Of a DNA stretch of 42,828 bases, positions 35,248 through 42,195 are shown one piece after another. Under the pieces are notes generated by a model, which did no database searches, was not told the origin of the DNA, and worked only from the letters and a program-made list of their open reading frames with translations. Source of the DNA: Candidatus Eiseniibacteriota bacterium (GTDB taxonomy: Bacteria > Joyebacterota > Joyebacteria > Joyebacterales > Joyebacteraceae). The DNA lies in contig JAUVLG010000016.1 in assembly GCA_030595835.1 (NCBI GenBank), forward strand, positions 1-42,828. Direction: 5' to 3'. The stretch's first letter is position 1. Every line of letters begins with the position of its first letter. The translations under genes were made by a program, and so were the position numbers.

Positions 35248-36060
35248 TTATAGCTTCTCGAGAGTGCTGGACACGAGAGAAACAAGCGCGCCCGCTCCTC
35301 GCCTGCCGGCCTCGAGGACCTCCTCGTGGGTGGTCCCGTGGAAGCGCCCGGGCAGCGGGACGTTCGTCACGAGCGCCATACCCATGACTTCCAGTCCTCT
35401 CGAGTGAGCGGCCTGCACCTCCGACACGGTCGACATGCCCACCGCTGAGGCGCCCATCAGTCTGGCCATCCGTATCTCGGCCGGTGTCTCGTAGGTCGGC
35501 CCAAGAGAACCCAGATAGACTCCCTCACGGAGTCTTATCTTTGCGTCGGCCGCGGCCGACCGGGCCACGGCCCTGAGACGTTCGGAGTAGGCGCCGACCA
35601 TGCGGAACGTGCCCGGTGGCAATCTCTGCTGACCCGTCACGGCCGCGATCTGATCGCTGATGAGCATGAGGTCCCCCACATCGAAACCGGGATCGATCCC
35701 GCCGGACGCGTTGGTGATCACGAACACACTCGCTCCAAGCTCAGCCGCGAGAAGGACTGAGAACGTCACGTCAGCGGGAGAGCATCCCTCGTAGTGATGG
35801 ACCCTCCCCGAAAACACCAGTGTGCGTTTCCCCCCGAGGTTACAACCGATCACCGCGCCGCGATGTCCGCTGACGGCCGTGCGAGGGAATCCGGGGATAT
35901 CCGAGTAGGGCACGACGAGCGCGTCGCCGAGTCCGTCCGCGAACGAGGAGAGCCCCGACCCCAGAACCACGGCCGCGTCGGGATCTGCGAGGCCGCGCTC
36001 GACGAGCAGCTTCGCGGCGGCTGCAACGCTCACGCCGGCTGTGTCACGTGGATGTGTCAA
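35248..36060 (-). CDS. purine nucleoside phosphorylase (inosine/guanosine type)
   Basis: A trimeric (class I) phosphorylase for purine salvage, 270 residues. The phosphate loop is VVLGSGLSSFADGL; VSGHRGAVIG, FSGRVHHYEG, VFVITNASGGIDPGFDVGDLMLISDQI, YLGSLGPTYETPAEIRM and GMSTVSEVQAAHSRGLEVMGMALVTN (with the Asn of the base site) are family blocks. The start is a TTG whose last bases are shared with the rimI stop (TTGA), so the two are co-translated. An alternative name is xanthosine/inosine phosphorylase; the base preference cannot be judged. Confidence 0.92.
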   Translation of the reverse strand: MTHPRDTAGVSVAAAAKLLVERGLADPDAAVVLGSGLSSFADGLGDALVVPYSDIPGFPRTAVSGHRGAVIGCNLGGKRTLVFSGRVHHYEGCSPADVTFSVLLAAELGASVFVITNASGGIDPGFDVGDLMLISDQIAAVTGQQRLPPGTFRMVGAYSERLRAVARSAAADAKIRLREGVYLGSLGPTYETPAEIRMARLMGASAVGMSTVSEVQAAHSRGLEVMGMALVTNVPLPGRFHGTTHEEVLEAGRRGAGALVSLVSSTLEKL

Positions 36061-36533
36061 CTCGCCTCATCCCGGGACGGGATCGTCTTGAGCATGACGA
36101 GCGCGTCCTCACCGGTGTCCGAGTAGTACCCCTTGCGCAGGGCCACGGGTATGAACCCGTGGTCCTCGTAGAGAGCGATCGCGCGCGCGTTGCCGACGCG
36201 AACCTCGAGCGTCGCCCGCGTCACTCCGCGCTCTAGGGCAGCGCTCAGGCAGTGCCCGAAGAGCGCCCGACCGATCCCTGCTCCCTGCAGCGCGGGCGCC
36301 ACAGCGATGTTGCCAACGTGCAATTCGTCCTCAATAAGCCACGAGATCATGTAGCCGACGACGCTACCGTTCTTCTCGACGACCCACGGAAACGCGCACC
36401 TGTCGGCGGCAAGCTCCGCCTCGAACGATGTCCGCGACCATGGCATCGGGAATATCTCTTCCTCAATAGCACACACGCGGTCGAGGTCGGAAGGCCTCAT
36501 GGGCCTGATGTGAACGGGGGTCCCGCCCATCAT
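36057..36533 (-). CDS. rimI: ribosomal protein S18-alanine N-acetyltransferase (RimI, GNAT family)
   Basis: Acetylates the N-terminal alanine of ribosomal protein S18 in E. coli. It has 158 residues. The GNAT core is IRPMRPSDLDRVCAIEEEIFPMPWS, then VVEKNGSVVGYMISWLIEDELHVGNIAVAPALQGAGIGRALF (the acetyl-CoA loop QGAGIGRAL) and LEVRVGNARAIALYEDHGFIPVALRKGYYSD with the typical C-terminal block. The ATG at 36533 has GGAG seven bases upstream; the longer open frame overlaps tsaB and is not used. Its place after tsaB matches the tsaB-rimI pairing common in bacteria. Confidence 0.94.
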   Translation of the reverse strand: MMGGTPVHIRPMRPSDLDRVCAIEEEIFPMPWSRTSFEAELAADRCAFPWVVEKNGSVVGYMISWLIEDELHVGNIAVAPALQGAGIGRALFGHCLSAALERGVTRATLEVRVGNARAIALYEDHGFIPVALRKGYYSDTGEDALVMLKTIPSRDEAS

Positions 36534-36558
36534 CGAATCGCTCCGTAGCAGTGGCGCC

Positions 36559-37227
36559 CTAGATCCCTCTGAGATAGACGGGCTCAAGCGTCGCCGCCTC
36601 CGCGGGGTCAGGCAGCCCCAGTTCCTCAGCAATGGCCGCCATCGCAAGGGGCGTGGCCGTGTTCACATCTGCGTCCGGGAAGCGCGCGCTCCCCCCCAGC
36701 GACGCCTTCACATCGCCGGCGCACGCTGCCGCGCCGCCGCCGACAAAGAGAACCTCTCGCCCTCCGGCCGCCTCCTGCACGCGCTCGATCATGCCGGCGG
36801 GGGCGACCGCAACGTCCTGGAGCACCCGCTCCCGACCATCGCCCAGGTGGAAGAGCGCAGCGTAGACCTCTCCCTTCCTCGCATCCAGCATCGGGCAGAC
36901 GAGCCCTTCGTAAGGCCTGGCACTCTCGGCAAGTGCTTCCAGAGACTGGACAGGCACAACGGGCAGGCCCCGGGCTGCCGCGAGACCCTTGGCGGTCGCG
37001 AGACCGACACGGAGCCCGCTGAATCTCCCCGGGCCTATCGATACCGCGATCGCGTCGAGCTCACGGAGACCTACGGACGCGCGTGACAGCGCCGACTCGA
37101 CCGCACCGAGCAGTTTCTCAGTGTGGCCCCTGCCCACGGTCTCAGTGATCTCCGCCAGGACGGACCCGTCCCTGACAACGGCCACCCGCTCCATCGGCGT
37201 CGACGTCTCGATCGTCAGAATCAACAT
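36559..37227 (-). CDS. tsaB: tRNA threonylcarbamoyladenosine biosynthesis protein TsaB
   Basis: A scaffold subunit for the t6A37 tRNA modification with TsaD, TsaE and TsaC. It has 222 residues. ILTIETSTPMERVAVVRDG, the GRGHTEKLL segment, AIAVSIGPGRFSGLRVGLATAKGLA and CPMLDARKGEVYAALF are family blocks; as usual it lacks intact ASKHA ATP-binding residues. The ATG at 37227 gives the canonical start; an upstream Arg-rich extension overlaps tsaE and is not real. tsaD is not in the window. Confidence 0.95.
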   Translation of the reverse strand: MLILTIETSTPMERVAVVRDGSVLAEITETVGRGHTEKLLGAVESALSRASVGLRELDAIAVSIGPGRFSGLRVGLATAKGLAAARGLPVVPVQSLEALAESARPYEGLVCPMLDARKGEVYAALFHLGDGRERVLQDVAVAPAGMIERVQEAAGGREVLFVGGGAAACAGDVKASLGGSARFPDADVNTATPLAMAAIAEELGLPDPAEAATLEPVYLRGI

Positions 37228-37292
37228 CCGCCCTCGCTCCCGGGCTCGCAGGCGCAATCGATCCCCTGCCGCCCTCGAACGTGCTCGGTCGC

Positions 37293-37775
37293 TCAGTCGC
37301 TCGTCGGCCACGACTCTCGGAGCCGCGCGAGCAGTTCAGCCCCACCGCTTCCGAAAGCGCTCACTGTGAACGCGCGGTCGTCCGGCCCCTCGATATCGAT
37401 GACAACACGCAGGCGGTCGGGCGGAAGAAACTCCGGCGCCCGGTCGGCCCACTCGACCAGGGCCACGCCATCCACGAAGAAGATCTCTCTGTAGCCGATG
37501 TCCTCAAGCTCCCGGGCGTCCTCGATACGGTAGAGATCGACGTGGAGTATCGGTACGCGTCCCTCGTATTCGTTCACCAGGACGAACGTCGGGCTGGTTA
37601 CGTAACCATCGTAGCCCAGGCCTTCCGCCGCGCCCTGAATGGCCACGGTCTTGCCGCTGCCAAGTTGCCCTTCGAAGCCGACGAACCCGCCCCGAGAGAG
37701 CGCCACACCCAGCGCCCGTCCGAATGCCCTGGTCTCGTCGGCTGATGCTGTCCGGAATCGGAAGGTGTCAGTCAC
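37293..37775 (-). CDS. tsaE: tRNA threonylcarbamoyladenosine biosynthesis ATPase TsaE
   Basis: A P-loop ATPase of the t6A complex, 160 residues. Walker A is FEGQLGSGKTVAIQGAAEGLG, then VTSPTFVLVNEYEG, ILHVDLYRIEDARELEDIGYREIFF with the Asp of Walker B, and VALVEWADRAPEFLPPDRL. The start is a GTG with a poor Shine-Dalgarno. It begins 14 bases after the porX-like gene ends, and tsaB starts 65 bases later, so kinase, regulator and t6A genes appear to be one transcript. Confidence 0.95.
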   Translation of the reverse strand: MTDTFRFRTASADETRAFGRALGVALSRGGFVGFEGQLGSGKTVAIQGAAEGLGYDGYVTSPTFVLVNEYEGRVPILHVDLYRIEDARELEDIGYREIFFVDGVALVEWADRAPEFLPPDRLRVVIDIEGPDDRAFTVSAFGSGGAELLARLRESWPTSD

Positions 37776-37789
37776 GTCGGGGCCCTGGG

Positions 37790-39355
37790 CTAACGTTTTG
37801 GTACCATGGTGGCACAGGGCAGGATCATCTCCTCAAGCGAGATCCCCCCGTGCTGGAAGCTCCCCCGATACTGGCGCTCGTACTTGTGAAACTCCGTCGG
37901 GTAGACGAAGTAGTAGTCCTCTTTGGCGATGGCATACTGCTTGCTTGCGCCGTCGCTCGGCAGCTTGTACTCGGCGGGATTCCTGATGAGGAAGGTCTCC
38001 TTCTCATCGCACCCGAGATTGCTGCCGAACTTGTACCTGAGGTTCGTGGAAGTGTCGCGGTTGCCCCTGATGAGCGCGGCGCGCCTTCCCAGCATCGCTC
38101 CGTGGTCGGTGGTCACTATGACGGTCGCGCCCTGTCGGGCCATCTCCCTCATGATGTCGTAGAGAGCGGAGTGATTGAACCACGAGCGCACGAGCGAGCG
38201 AAACGCGGGCTCGTCGGGTGCGATCTCCTTCAGGATCTCCGACTCCGACCGCGAGTGAGACAGGATGTCGACGAAGTTGTAGACGAGCGACACGAAGGGC
38301 AGGTCGTGAAACGTCGACATCTGGCGCCGGATGTTGTCGGCCTCGTCCTTCTGGTAGATCTTGATGTACTTGTGGTCGCGCGTGAGGAAGATCCCGAGGT
38401 CGGACAGCTGCCGGTCCATCATCTGCCGCTCGAACCTGTTCTTGCTGAAGTCGTTACGGGAGGGCGTCGCCCACAGCTCGGGAAACTGCTCGGAGAATTC
38501 GATCGGCCAACGCCCGCTGAAGAGCGCGTTCCTCGAGTACGGCGTCGCCGTAGGCAGGATCGAATAGTAGTAGTTGTTCTCGATGTCGAAGTACGGCTCG
38601 AGGCTCGGCACCAGACTGAACCAGTGATCGAGGCGCATGCAGTCAAGCACGACGAAGTAGGTCTTCGTTTTCGCCTTGAGATGGGGAGCAACGAAGCGCT
38701 CGAATATATCCACGGACAGGAGGGGCCGGTCCGTTGCGTCGCTCACCCAGTCCAGGTAGACGTCGCTCACGAAGCGGGAGAATTCGGCGTTGGCGGACTG
38801 CCCCAGATCGAAGTGCGTCTGCCTTAACCCCGGATCGCGGAACCGGTCGAGTTCCAGATCCCAGTTGACCAGCCTGGTGTAGACCTGGATCCAGTCCTCC
38901 CAGTTCATCGCGTCCATGATCCGGCTGCGAATCTCGTTGAACTCCGAGGCGTACGTCTGCGCCAGCTGGTCCTGCTGTATCTTCATGCCGTCCAGAAGAC
39001 GTTTGATCGCAAGGAAGACCTGAGACGGTTTGACCGGCTTGATGAGGAAGTCGTCGATGCGCCGCCCCAGCGCATCGTTCATCAGCTCCTCTTCCTCGCT
39101 CTTCGTGACCATCACGACGGGAATGGAGGGGTCGATCTCCTTGATACCCGCAAGCGTCTCCAGTCCGTCTATGCCGACCATCATCTCGTCCAAGAGCACC
39201 AGGTCGTATCGCCCGTCTCTGAGCATGCCCAGGGCTTCGGTCCCGCCGGAAGCGGTAGCGATCTCGAAGCCTTTCTGCTCAAGAAATATGATGTGCGGCT
39301 TGAGCATCTCGATCTCGTCGTCGACCCAGAGTATCTTCCGTGCTGAGACATCCAT
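37790..39355 (-). CDS. porX: PorX-like response regulator with PglZ phosphatase domain
   Basis: A 521-residue cytoplasmic regulator. The receiver domain (residues 1-125) has acidic pair Asp12/Asp13, phospho-acceptor Asp56 (LVLLDEMM) and Lys106 (FLIKP). A helical linker leads to a C-terminal PglZ/alkaline-phosphatase-superfamily domain: VVLDCMRLDHW (metal Asp), ILPTATPYSRNALFSG (nucleophile Thr), FVDILSHSRSESE (Asp/His), VIVTTDHGAMLG. In Porphyromonas PorX controls the type IX secretion system and is a phosphodiesterase; all expected metal and nucleophile residues appear present here. The upstream neighbour is a histidine kinase. ATG start with GGAGAGG 11 bases before. Confidence 0.9.
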   Translation of the reverse strand: MDVSARKILWVDDEIEMLKPHIIFLEQKGFEIATASGGTEALGMLRDGRYDLVLLDEMMVGIDGLETLAGIKEIDPSIPVVMVTKSEEEELMNDALGRRIDDFLIKPVKPSQVFLAIKRLLDGMKIQQDQLAQTYASEFNEIRSRIMDAMNWEDWIQVYTRLVNWDLELDRFRDPGLRQTHFDLGQSANAEFSRFVSDVYLDWVSDATDRPLLSVDIFERFVAPHLKAKTKTYFVVLDCMRLDHWFSLVPSLEPYFDIENNYYYSILPTATPYSRNALFSGRWPIEFSEQFPELWATPSRNDFSKNRFERQMMDRQLSDLGIFLTRDHKYIKIYQKDEADNIRRQMSTFHDLPFVSLVYNFVDILSHSRSESEILKEIAPDEPAFRSLVRSWFNHSALYDIMREMARQGATVIVTTDHGAMLGRRAALIRGNRDTSTNLRYKFGSNLGCDEKETFLIRNPAEYKLPSDGASKQYAIAKEDYYFVYPTEFHKYERQYRGSFQHGGISLEEMILPCATMVPKR

Positions 39356-39422
39356 CTATGTTGTCGCCTCTCCAGATAGCCGGCGTCTCAAGGGCACCCT
39401 CGCGACGCCGCGGTGTAGTTGC

Positions 39423-40700
39423 TCAGTTCGTGGGAAGTGAGATGATGAACGTGGTTCCCTTCCCGACCTCCGACCAGCTCACGTACAGTTTCCCGTTGTG
39501 GTACTCCTCGACAATCCTCTGCGCCAGCGCGAGCCCCAGGCCCCAGCCCTTCCGCTTCGTTGAGTATCCCGGGACGAAGATGTGCCTGCGCTCCGTGGGC
39601 GAAAGCCCCTTCCCGCTGTCGGTGATGCGAATCTGGACAGACCCGTCCTTCGGGAAATGCTCGGTTGAGATCTCGATCCTCCCACCGGTGTCCGGCAACG
39701 CCTCAGTTGAGTTCTTGACCAGATTCTCCACGACCCACTCCATCAGCTCGCGGTTGATCTCAATCGGCGGCACGGGACCGTAGCTCTCCACTATCTCCAC
39801 GTTCCTCTTGAGTGCCTGTAGTCTGTGGCGGAGGTAGTCCACCACGTCCCTGAGGGCCACGACGAGATCCTGTCGCCTGGTCTTCGGGATCGACCCTATC
39901 TGATTGAAGCGGAGCGATATTTTCTCGAGCCTGTCGAGATCTCGCTGCATCTCGTCGGTCATGCCGGCCATTTCGTCGGCCGGACAGCCGCGCCGGGCCG
40001 ACTCCTTGATGAGCTCCACCCAACCCATGAGAGACGATATGGGGGTCCCCAGCTGGTGCGCCGTCTCCTTGGCCAAGCCCACCCAGATGGAACGCAGCTC
40101 CGCCAGCTTCGCATTTCGGAAGCCCAGGTAGCCCAGGAACACCAGGACCCCGAACGCCAAGAGCTCGAGCGCCGGGACGTAGCGCATCTCGCGGATCATG
40201 CTCGACTCCCCATAGTGGATGTAGCCGAGGACGGTGACGTCCCCGATGTGGGTCATGGGGATGGGGTCGTGCTTCGCGTCGAGCCCGGCAGAGAACGCGA
40301 CTATCTCCTCGAAGACAGAGCCCTCGAGGCTGGACGGGTCGGCGCTGATGTAATCGTCGTGACTGATGTCGTCCGGGGCCACATCGACCGGGACGCCCTT
40401 CCACGTGATGGGGATGCCCCGAACGTCGGATATCACGATCGGGAAGTTGATGGCCTCGATGAGTTCAGAGAAGATAACCCGCAGGGGCTCGTTCTCACGG
40501 GCCTCGTATGTCGCGGTGGCGCACAGGCCCGCGATCGAGCGTGACAGCGTAGCCGACTGCGCCTCCAGACGGCGGATGAGGCTGTTCGTGTAGAAGAAAA
40601 TGAGTATGGCCAACGCCGAGACGGCGACAAAGACGTAGGCCCGCGTCCTGTAGACGACGGGCCGCTCGGTGTCCTGCAGCTTGCCCAGGCGAGAAGGCAT
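39423..40700 (-). CDS. membrane sensor histidine kinase (candidate PorX partner)
   Basis: A 425-residue inner-membrane kinase. Membrane segments near residues 22-39 and 177-194 enclose a periplasmic sensor domain of about 135 residues. The H-box AKETAHQLGTPISSLMGW has His215; the N-box ENLVKNSTEALPDTGG, G1 ITDSGKGLSP and G2 GWGLGLALAQRIVEE follow. This kinase type (AKETAHQLGTP) is common in the FCB group. The ATG at 40700 is chosen because GGAGGGG lies eight bases before it and a promoter places the transcript start near 40743. The PorX-like regulator starts 67 bases after its stop, so it is the likely phosphotransfer partner (inference). Confidence 0.88.
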   Translation of the reverse strand: MPSRLGKLQDTERPVVYRTRAYVFVAVSALAILIFFYTNSLIRRLEAQSATLSRSIAGLCATATYEARENEPLRVIFSELIEAINFPIVISDVRGIPITWKGVPVDVAPDDISHDDYISADPSSLEGSVFEEIVAFSAGLDAKHDPIPMTHIGDVTVLGYIHYGESSMIREMRYVPALELLAFGVLVFLGYLGFRNAKLAELRSIWVGLAKETAHQLGTPISSLMGWVELIKESARRGCPADEMAGMTDEMQRDLDRLEKISLRFNQIGSIPKTRRQDLVVALRDVVDYLRHRLQALKRNVEIVESYGPVPPIEINRELMEWVVENLVKNSTEALPDTGGRIEISTEHFPKDGSVQIRITDSGKGLSPTERRHIFVPGYSTKRKGWGLGLALAQRIVEEYHNGKLYVSWSEVGKGTTFIISLPTN

Positions 40701-40749
40701 GCGGCGCCCCTCCATTCCGCGTACATCAAAGACACGTGGCCTCATTTAC

Positions 40750-40778
40750 AGTCTAGCACAGGGGTTGGGCTTGTCCAA
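40750..40778 (-). promoter_or_regulatory. sigma70-type promoter of the histidine kinase-porX operon
   Basis: On the minus strand TTGGAC (40773-40778), 17 bases and TAGACT (40750-40755). Transcription would begin near 40743, 43 bases before the ATG. It lies after the serS hairpin, in a 186-base gap. Confidence 0.68.
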
Positions 40779-40816
40779 ACCGCCTCCCGCGGAGGCTCGG
40801 CCTCGGACCAAAGCGT

Positions 40817-40839
40817 GGGCCGGGGCATCTCCCCGGCCC
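40817..40839 (-). terminator. hairpin after serS
   Basis: GGGCCGGGG pairs with CCCCGGCCC across a 5-base loop (extendable by a G-U and a G-C pair), 48 bases after the serS stop. No U-tract. It lies just before the histidine kinase promoter. Confidence 0.6.
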
Positions 40840-40886
40840 GCTCGCGCTGCGACGCATGTTCGCTTCCACCGGACCGTCCGGCGGCC

Positions 40887-42158
40887 CTACGCTATCTCTG
40901 AGAGCCCACCCATGTAGGGTCGCAGAACCTCCGGGATGACTATCTTCCCGTCCGTCGTCTGGTAGTTCTCCAGTATCGCCACGACCGCCCGGGCGAGCGC
41001 CACTCCGGATCCGTTCACCGTGTGCACGAACCTCGCCTTGCCGCCGTCGGCAGGCTTGTACTGGATGCCCGCCCGCCGGGCCTGAAAGTCCTCGTAGTTG
41101 CTGCACGAGCTCACTTCCAGCCACTTCCCCACGCCCGCTGACCAGATATCGATGTCGTAGCACTTGGCCGCCGCGAACGAGAGGTCGCCCGTGCATAGTG
41201 TCTTCAGACGGTACGCGAGGCCGAGGCGCTGGAGAATGGTCTCGGCGTTCTTCGTGAGCGCCTCGTGCTCGTCGTAGGAGGTCGACGGTTCCACGTACTT
41301 CATCATCTCGACCTTGTCGAACTGGTGCACGCGCACGAGGCCGCGAGTATCGCGACCGTAGGACCCCGCCTCACGCCGGAAGCACGGCGTGTGGGTCGTG
41401 TAATAGATGGGGAGTCGCTCCTCCGGGATGATCTCCTCGCGATGGAGGTTGGTCAACGGGACCTCGCCGGTCGAGATCAGAAAAAGGTCGTCCTGCTCGA
41501 TGCGGTACATGTCCGACTCGAGCTTCGGGAGCTGCCCCGTGCCCTGCACCGCCAGACGGTTCGCGACAAACGGCGGGGACACCTCGGTGTACCCGTGCTC
41601 GTTCGTGTGGACATCCAGCATGAACTGGATCAGCGCCCGCTCCAGGCGTGCGCCCGCTCCTACGAAGACAGGGAAGTTGGACCCCGCCAGCTTGCTCGAC
41701 GCCTGGAAGTTCAGAATGCCCAGCGCCTCGCCTATCTCCCAGTGCGGGACCGGCTTGTCGGACAGCGAGTGGGGCTCGCCCCACTCCCGGATGAGGACGT
41801 TCTCGTCCTCGTCCGCCCCGACCGGCACGGACTCGTGCGGTATGTTGGGGATCATGAGCGCGAGCGCCTCGATCTCTTCGCGCATCGAGGCCAGCTTCTC
41901 GTTGTAGCCCTTGATGCTCGCCGCGACGTCGCGCATCCGCGCGATTGGCTCGGACGCGTCCTCCCCCGCCTTCTTCAGAGAGGCTATTCGCTCGCTCTCG
42001 ACGTTCCTCTGACGCTTGAGTTCGTCCGACTCGACTATGATCGCGCGTACGGCTTCGTCCAGCTCAAGCAGGCGGTCGAGTTCCGCCTTCTCTCCCTTGT
42101 CGGCGATGGCCTTCCGCACGACGTCGGGGTTCGTCCTTATGAATCTCAGATCCAGCAT
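40887..42158 (-). CDS. serS: seryl-tRNA synthetase
   Basis: Class II synthetase that charges tRNA-Ser and, in organisms with selenocysteine, also tRNA-Sec. It has 423 residues. The N-terminal coiled coil begins MLDLRFIRTNPDVVRKA. Motif 1 lies near FPVFVGAGARLERALIQFMLDVH, motif 2 in TPCFRREAGSYGRDTRGLVRVHQFDKVEM and motif 3 in VNGSGVALARAVVAILENYQ; the serine/zinc-independent site is STGEVPLTN. The ATG at 42158 (with GGTGG eight bases upstream) is preferred to a GTG four codons earlier. The presence of selC in the same window makes the dual charging role relevant. Confidence 0.97.
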   Translation of the reverse strand: MLDLRFIRTNPDVVRKAIADKGEKAELDRLLELDEAVRAIIVESDELKRQRNVESERIASLKKAGEDASEPIARMRDVAASIKGYNEKLASMREEIEALALMIPNIPHESVPVGADEDENVLIREWGEPHSLSDKPVPHWEIGEALGILNFQASSKLAGSNFPVFVGAGARLERALIQFMLDVHTNEHGYTEVSPPFVANRLAVQGTGQLPKLESDMYRIEQDDLFLISTGEVPLTNLHREEIIPEERLPIYYTTHTPCFRREAGSYGRDTRGLVRVHQFDKVEMMKYVEPSTSYDEHEALTKNAETILQRLGLAYRLKTLCTGDLSFAAAKCYDIDIWSAGVGKWLEVSSCSNYEDFQARRAGIQYKPADGGKARFVHTVNGSGVALARAVVAILENYQTTDGKIVIPEVLRPYMGGLSEIA

Positions 42159-42195
42159 ATCCGTGTCCACCGTTTAGGTTTGGATGATGGCGCTT

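Follow-up and report, generated by a model that had tools for sequence, protein, structure and literature searches.

A PorY-like histidine kinase gene beside porX in Candidatus Eiseniibacteriota and a wider FCB lineage

The question raised by this locus, in a window of 42,828 nucleotides (the whole stretch of DNA that was analysed, from a Candidatus Eiseniibacteriota genome), is whether a histidine kinase gene lying directly upstream of a porX-like gene encodes the partner of PorX, and whether such a pair could control type IX secretion in a bacterium outside the Bacteroidota. In the available excerpts, papers mostly treat the type IX secretion system (T9SS) and PorXY as features of Bacteroidota, with porX and porY far apart: in P. 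gingivalis the two genes (PGN_1019 and PGN_2001) are separated by about 1000 genes (PMC5005315), whereas the window has them adjacent. One excerpt reports the T9SS from Bacteroidetes only (PMC4793230), and another that it may occur in other FCB phyla (PMC11285876). The features discussed are collected in Table 1.

Table 1. Features of the kinase-porX locus, in window coordinates
Feature	Position	Strand	Remarks
rimI	36057..36647	(-)	downstream in the porX cluster
tsaB	36559..37311	(-)	follows tsaE
tsaE	37293..37775	(-)	14 bp downstream of porX
porX-tsaE junction	37775..37790
porX	37790..39355	(-)	receiver (about residues 1-120), linker and PglZ/alkaline-phosphatase-superfamily domain; Asp56 phospho-acceptor, Thr271 nucleophile
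two-TM histidine kinase, most likely porY orthologue	39423..40700	(-)	His230 phospho-acceptor in the 440-aa ORF (His215 counted from Met16)
extracytoplasmic sensor region of the kinase	40164..40562	(-)	ORF residues 62-194; small alpha/beta domain
GC-rich inverted repeat	40746..40886		serS-porY gap
weak sigma-70-like promoter match	40750..40777	(-)	TGGACA-16-TAGACT, serS-porY gap
serS	40887..42170	(-)	neighbour upstream of the kinase gene, as in many relatives

The porX product (521 aa) combines the Pfam domains Response_reg and PglZ, scores 654.8 bits with the NCBIfam equivalog model for PorX (NF052313, T9SS_RR_PorX; cut-off 300 bits) and is matched over its full length by solved PorX chains at E about 1e-130. 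Its receiver carries Asp12/Asp13, Asp56, Thr84 and Lys106, and its effector domain Asp238, Thr271, Asp363, His367 and His502, all of which are kept in each of the 114 PorX rows compared; Asp417/His418 are kept in 113 of the 114, the remaining row having a gap. The window PorX is thus intact, with complete receiver and catalytic residues, which bears out the claim made for it by the sequence-only reading, i.e., the one previously made from the letters of the window. In F. johnsoniae PorX, a zinc phosphodiesterase with a solved structure, the available text of PMC11320123 names Asp54, Asp237, Thr271, Asp360, His364, His499, Asp414 and His415, and all seven zinc/catalytic residues as well as the receiver Asp are conserved in the window protein. 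A Pfam domain search found no DNA-binding domain in the window PorX, and its nearest relatives (about 91% identical) come from MAGs that bear the name Candidatus Eisenbacteria or just "bacterium". The row with a gap at the metal residues is the PorX of a genus relative (L004:6001-7542), where the gap is either a sequencing error or a true deletion.

The kinase gene, separated from porX by 67 bp, lies in an ORF that extends over 39423-40745 (-), beyond its probable start. The true start is probably Met16, at position 40700, because in our reading of the alignment it is common to the genus relatives L003, L004 and L010 and a GGAGG-type site precedes it; the kinase would then have the extent given in Table 1, as the coordinate in the earlier reading implied. 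HATPase_c is above its cut-off and HisKA, at 25.0 bits, slightly below (26.9), and two hydrophobic segments lie near ORF residues 31-58 and 187-210; this is what is expected of PorY, an inner-membrane kinase with two TM segments, a phospho-acceptor domain and an ATPase domain. For the sensor region no Pfam family and no significant fold match were found: modelled alone and compared with the PDB, it gave a best E of 0.05, the weak matches including PAS and WalK extracellular domains, so that a PAS/Cache-like fold is only suggested by the model. With the full kinase model, the structure matches are led by kinase structures.

The identity of this kinase was approached with a profile (A1) built from 30 porX-adjacent kinases. 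In a set of 41 genomes, comprising the window's own and 40 behind PorX loci that were picked mostly for a kinase not beside porX, exactly one match at E<=1e-40 was found in 38, most of these single matches coming from genomes with the kinase elsewhere; 33 of the 38 span both sensor and kinase regions and five cover the kinase core only, and the other three porX genomes have no match at that threshold. In a second draw of 79 genomes from one phylum, the Bacteroidota (that of G075), one match of 307-444 bits was found in 62, the next best anywhere being 137 bits, and this gap rejects a generic-kinase reading. PorX is above cut-off in 62 of the 79 as well, and a comparison of the tables finds that these are the same 62, with the same 17 lacking both; as the genomes are related, this split does not amount to 79 independent trials. 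In P. gingivalis, PorY spans the membrane twice, carries the phospho-acceptor His193, and binds and phosphorylates PorX (PMC4800418 and PMC5005315, as excerpted). The window's pair resembles it in the domain order and catalytic residues of PorX and in the kinase, which has two TM segments and a conserved phospho-acceptor His and is present in one copy per PorX genome; several members of the A1 family have the motif His at position 193 itself. As it pairs one-to-one with PorX and has both the two TM segments and the conserved His, the kinase is most likely a PorY orthologue, a comparison made with PGN_2001 by topology and His position only. Thus, the pairing of kinase and PorX in the earlier reading stands, and its view of the kinase as a different, local partner most likely gives way to PorY itself. 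The A1 profile can also serve for locating PorY wherever PorX occurs.

The kinase family shows some variation in architecture. The five core-only matches are short orthologues of 224-284 aa (G058, G061, G069, G072 and G079; loci L226-L230), and the PorX rows of these genomes (L049, L055, L067, L072 and L080) form one PorX clade. An N-terminal hydrophobic stretch is present in two of them and absent in three, from which it follows that PorY may be soluble in that clade. At the other end, the Poribacteria kinases (L045, L047, L051, L054, L059, L071 and L078) reach 494-544 aa and are longer than most before the kinase core.

Adjacency provides independent genetic support for the kinase as the partner of PorX. 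The arrangement is not peculiar to this genome: of the 80 named PorX loci, 45 have the kinase gene immediately before porX (32 do not, and three end at contig edges). The 80 are the best of 582 confirmed, a sample that therefore favours PorX near the window's own. In the window's family, PorX is above cut-off in 18 of 20 genomes (the other two are 57% and 78% complete) and the kinase is upstream in all 18 PorX loci, whereas among the 30 PorX loci listed for the phylum draw it is adjacent in none. A quick PorX tree of 114 rows, which took in 30 of the 62 PorX rows of that draw and in which the near relatives L002-L004 and L010 stand in for the window, groups all 47 adjacent rows within a single 51-row clade (SH-aLRT 100) and implies at least four changes overall. 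This clade comprises Eisenbacteria, Zixibacteria, Latescibacteria, Poribacteria, one TA06 MAG and MAGs labelled Gemmatimonadota. Adjacency is the rule in this whole FCB lineage, and the tree accommodates both its gain there and its loss elsewhere. In the available excerpts of the literature on PorX with PorY, PorX with PglZ, and T9SS or PorX in other FCB phyla, no adjacent kinase-porX pair was recognised, and no paper was found on the T9SS with Eisenbacteria. The locus represents a known system in a different gene arrangement, in phyla for which no description was found.

If the pair controls type IX secretion, the secretion genes should accompany it, and the sequence-only reading had proposed a search for them and for sorting domains, with a genome devoid of T9SS genes as the result that would count against it. 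That objection fails. As in known type IX systems, the window's own genome carries SprA/Sov, 17 PorV-family matches, the strongest at 236.5 bits against a cut-off of 90, and C-terminal sorting domains numbering at least 62 (91 candidates at a first pass; all 62 that were scored qualified). SprA is represented by two fragments, 1488 and 1028 aa long and each at a contig end, which overlap over 323 aa at 86% identity and most likely reflect an assembly or strain split. In a survey of 80 genomes, SprA_N was detected in 68 (65 above cut-off), and SprA was present in 68 of the 70 PorX-positive genomes (the exceptions being G018 and G043) and in none of the ten PorX-negative ones, two of which, G015 and G019, come from the window's family as incomplete MAGs. 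The phylum draw gives the same picture: SprA in 61 of the 62 genomes positive for PorX and kinase (exception G089) and in 0 of the 17 negative ones. Furthermore, in nine loci, mostly of Ignavibacteria (L039, L042, L060, L064, L066, L069, L077, L079 and L214), sprA immediately precedes porX in the same orientation, giving the order sprA-porX-tsaE with the kinase gene elsewhere, and porX is thus linked to the translocon by separate evidence. The claim that the pair occurs outside the classical Bacteroidota is upheld, with translocon and cargo genes in the same genome.

The rotary motor presents a different picture. In contrast to the known type IX systems, no PorL/GldL or PorM/GldM match was found in the window's genome, although the searches did recover their positive controls. 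The system differs from P. gingivalis PorXY both in the undetectable PorL/PorM and in a host outside the Bacteroidota. GldL/PorL was above cut-off in 0 of the 80 survey genomes (five weak matches at E 0.002-0.009). GldM/PorM was above it in 0 of 79, while a Bacteroidota control (G136) reached 2.8e-99. Around sprA in two members of the window's family, the neighbours examined, named from their Pfam domains, are metK, lptF/lptG, peptidase M28, rimP, nusA, infB, truB and a DHH protein, and no motor candidate is among them. It is possible that motor homologues lie beyond the reach of the profiles. In the phylum draw, GldL is above cut-off in 18 of the 79 genomes, all among the 62 with PorX, the other 44 of which lack a match above cut-off; the 18 are exactly the genomes of one PorX clade, which we infer to be the class Bacteroidia. 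Thus, PorX, PorY, SprA and sorting domains are the constant elements, and GldL is restricted. The physical target best described for PorX is therefore missing or unrecognisable here, and binding of PorX to PorL may not be general. For the Bacteroidetes incertae sedis, the available text of PMC7323717 reports PorX, PorY and Sov, with a component list that does not contain PorK, PorL, PorM or PorN, so that the pattern of PorX, PorY and Sov without a motor is partly in print.

With these elements, a mechanism may be proposed by analogy. PorY would sit in the inner membrane and sense the state of the envelope with its small extracytoplasmic domain, autophosphorylate at the His within its AHQLGTP motif, and pass the phosphate to Asp56 of PorX; phosphorylation would then change the activity or the partners of the zinc-dependent PglZ phosphodiesterase domain, through which, together with protein partners, PorX would tune how the SprA translocon and its many C-terminally tagged cargo proteins are produced or operate. 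The phosphotransfer, the zinc phosphodiesterase activity and the control of the T9SS in this scheme are carried over from P. gingivalis and F. johnsoniae; the identity and intact residues of PorX, the co-occurrence and adjacency of the kinase, and the SprA, PorV and sorting-domain genes are observed here. In P. gingivalis, according to the excerpts, PorX interacts with and stabilises SigP and binds PorL (PMC5005315), and acts upstream of SigP in T9SS gene expression (PMC7712824); its binding to DNA is disputed (PMC8050853 for, PMC5005315 against). By the PorL route, the profile search finds no recognisable partner for PorX in the window's genome. That this PorY-PorX pair controls type IX secretion along these lines is nonetheless very probable. 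The earlier notion of a self-contained pair controlling secretion is partly supported: the pair in one cluster and the T9SS genes in the genome agree with it, the kinase is most likely PorY and not a different local partner, and the undetectable motor had not been foreseen.

Other readings of the locus have to be weighed against the control of secretion. An ordinary kinase-regulator pair, in which PorX has a role outside the T9SS such as envelope or stress control and the T9SS link is specific to Bacteroidia, would agree with the undetectable PorL and PorM and with the housekeeping nature of the cluster neighbours (serS, tsaE, tsaB and rimI), but it is unlikely given how closely PorX and the kinase track SprA in the two surveys and that porX lies beside sprA in the Ignavibacteria-type loci. 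It might also be argued that the pair belongs to the t6A/translation cluster, with the kinase signalling to regulate expression of tsaE-tsaB-rimI, for the porX-tsaE adjacency is old: tsaE is downstream of porX in 67 of the 80 named loci (again the best 80 of 582; 10 without, three undecidable) and in 21 of the 30 listed Bacteroidota loci of the phylum draw. However, a kept gene order can mean common transcription only, six of the seven Poribacteria loci have the pair without tsaE downstream (the seventh is a contig edge), and PorX has no detected DNA-binding domain, all of which make this a distinctly improbable account.

The PglZ domain itself could recall a phage-defence protein of the BREX type fitted with a receiver domain, and the BREX-3 PglZ model does match, at 97.4 bits. 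This is far under its cut-off of 250 bits, as against 654.8 for the PorX model, and the identified neighbours (serS, tsaE, tsaB, rimI and a nucleoside phosphorylase) speak against it too; a BREX PglZ identity is accordingly rejected, and the reading merits scarcely any credence. Control of type IX secretion by PorY and PorX thus remains the preferred reading.

As a model centred on PorL cannot cover genomes without it, the function of PorX becomes a testable question. A tentative proposal, which we regard as somewhat less probable than its opposite, is that PorXY was the ancestral controller of the type IX translocon and predates the PorL-PorM rotary motor, the motor being absent from most FCB phyla. 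Originally PorX would then have acted either through a sigma factor or through its phosphodiesterase, with a nucleotide or some other phosphodiester messenger as substrate, and the binding of PorL would be a later addition in Bacteroidia. The oligonucleotide signalling raised in the sequence-only reading reportedly figures in the title of a published paper.

There remains the transcription of the pair, which the sequence-only reading placed in a promoter-defined operon with tsaE, tsaB and rimI. The adjacent kinase and PorX do head a cluster with these genes next to them, and the adjacency at the porX-tsaE junction is kept from Eisenbacteria to many Bacteroidota. The promoter part of the claim is weak: the candidate site, a 9/12 match with an extended -10, is one of two such sites against a chance expectation of 1.0, and it is shared with L002 and absent from three of the four genus relatives (L003, L004 and L010), in which serS directly abuts the kinase gene. 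The kinase and porX may accordingly be transcribed together with serS or from the candidate site. The GC-rich inverted repeat in the same gap, likewise absent from L003, L004 and L010, may be the terminator of serS.
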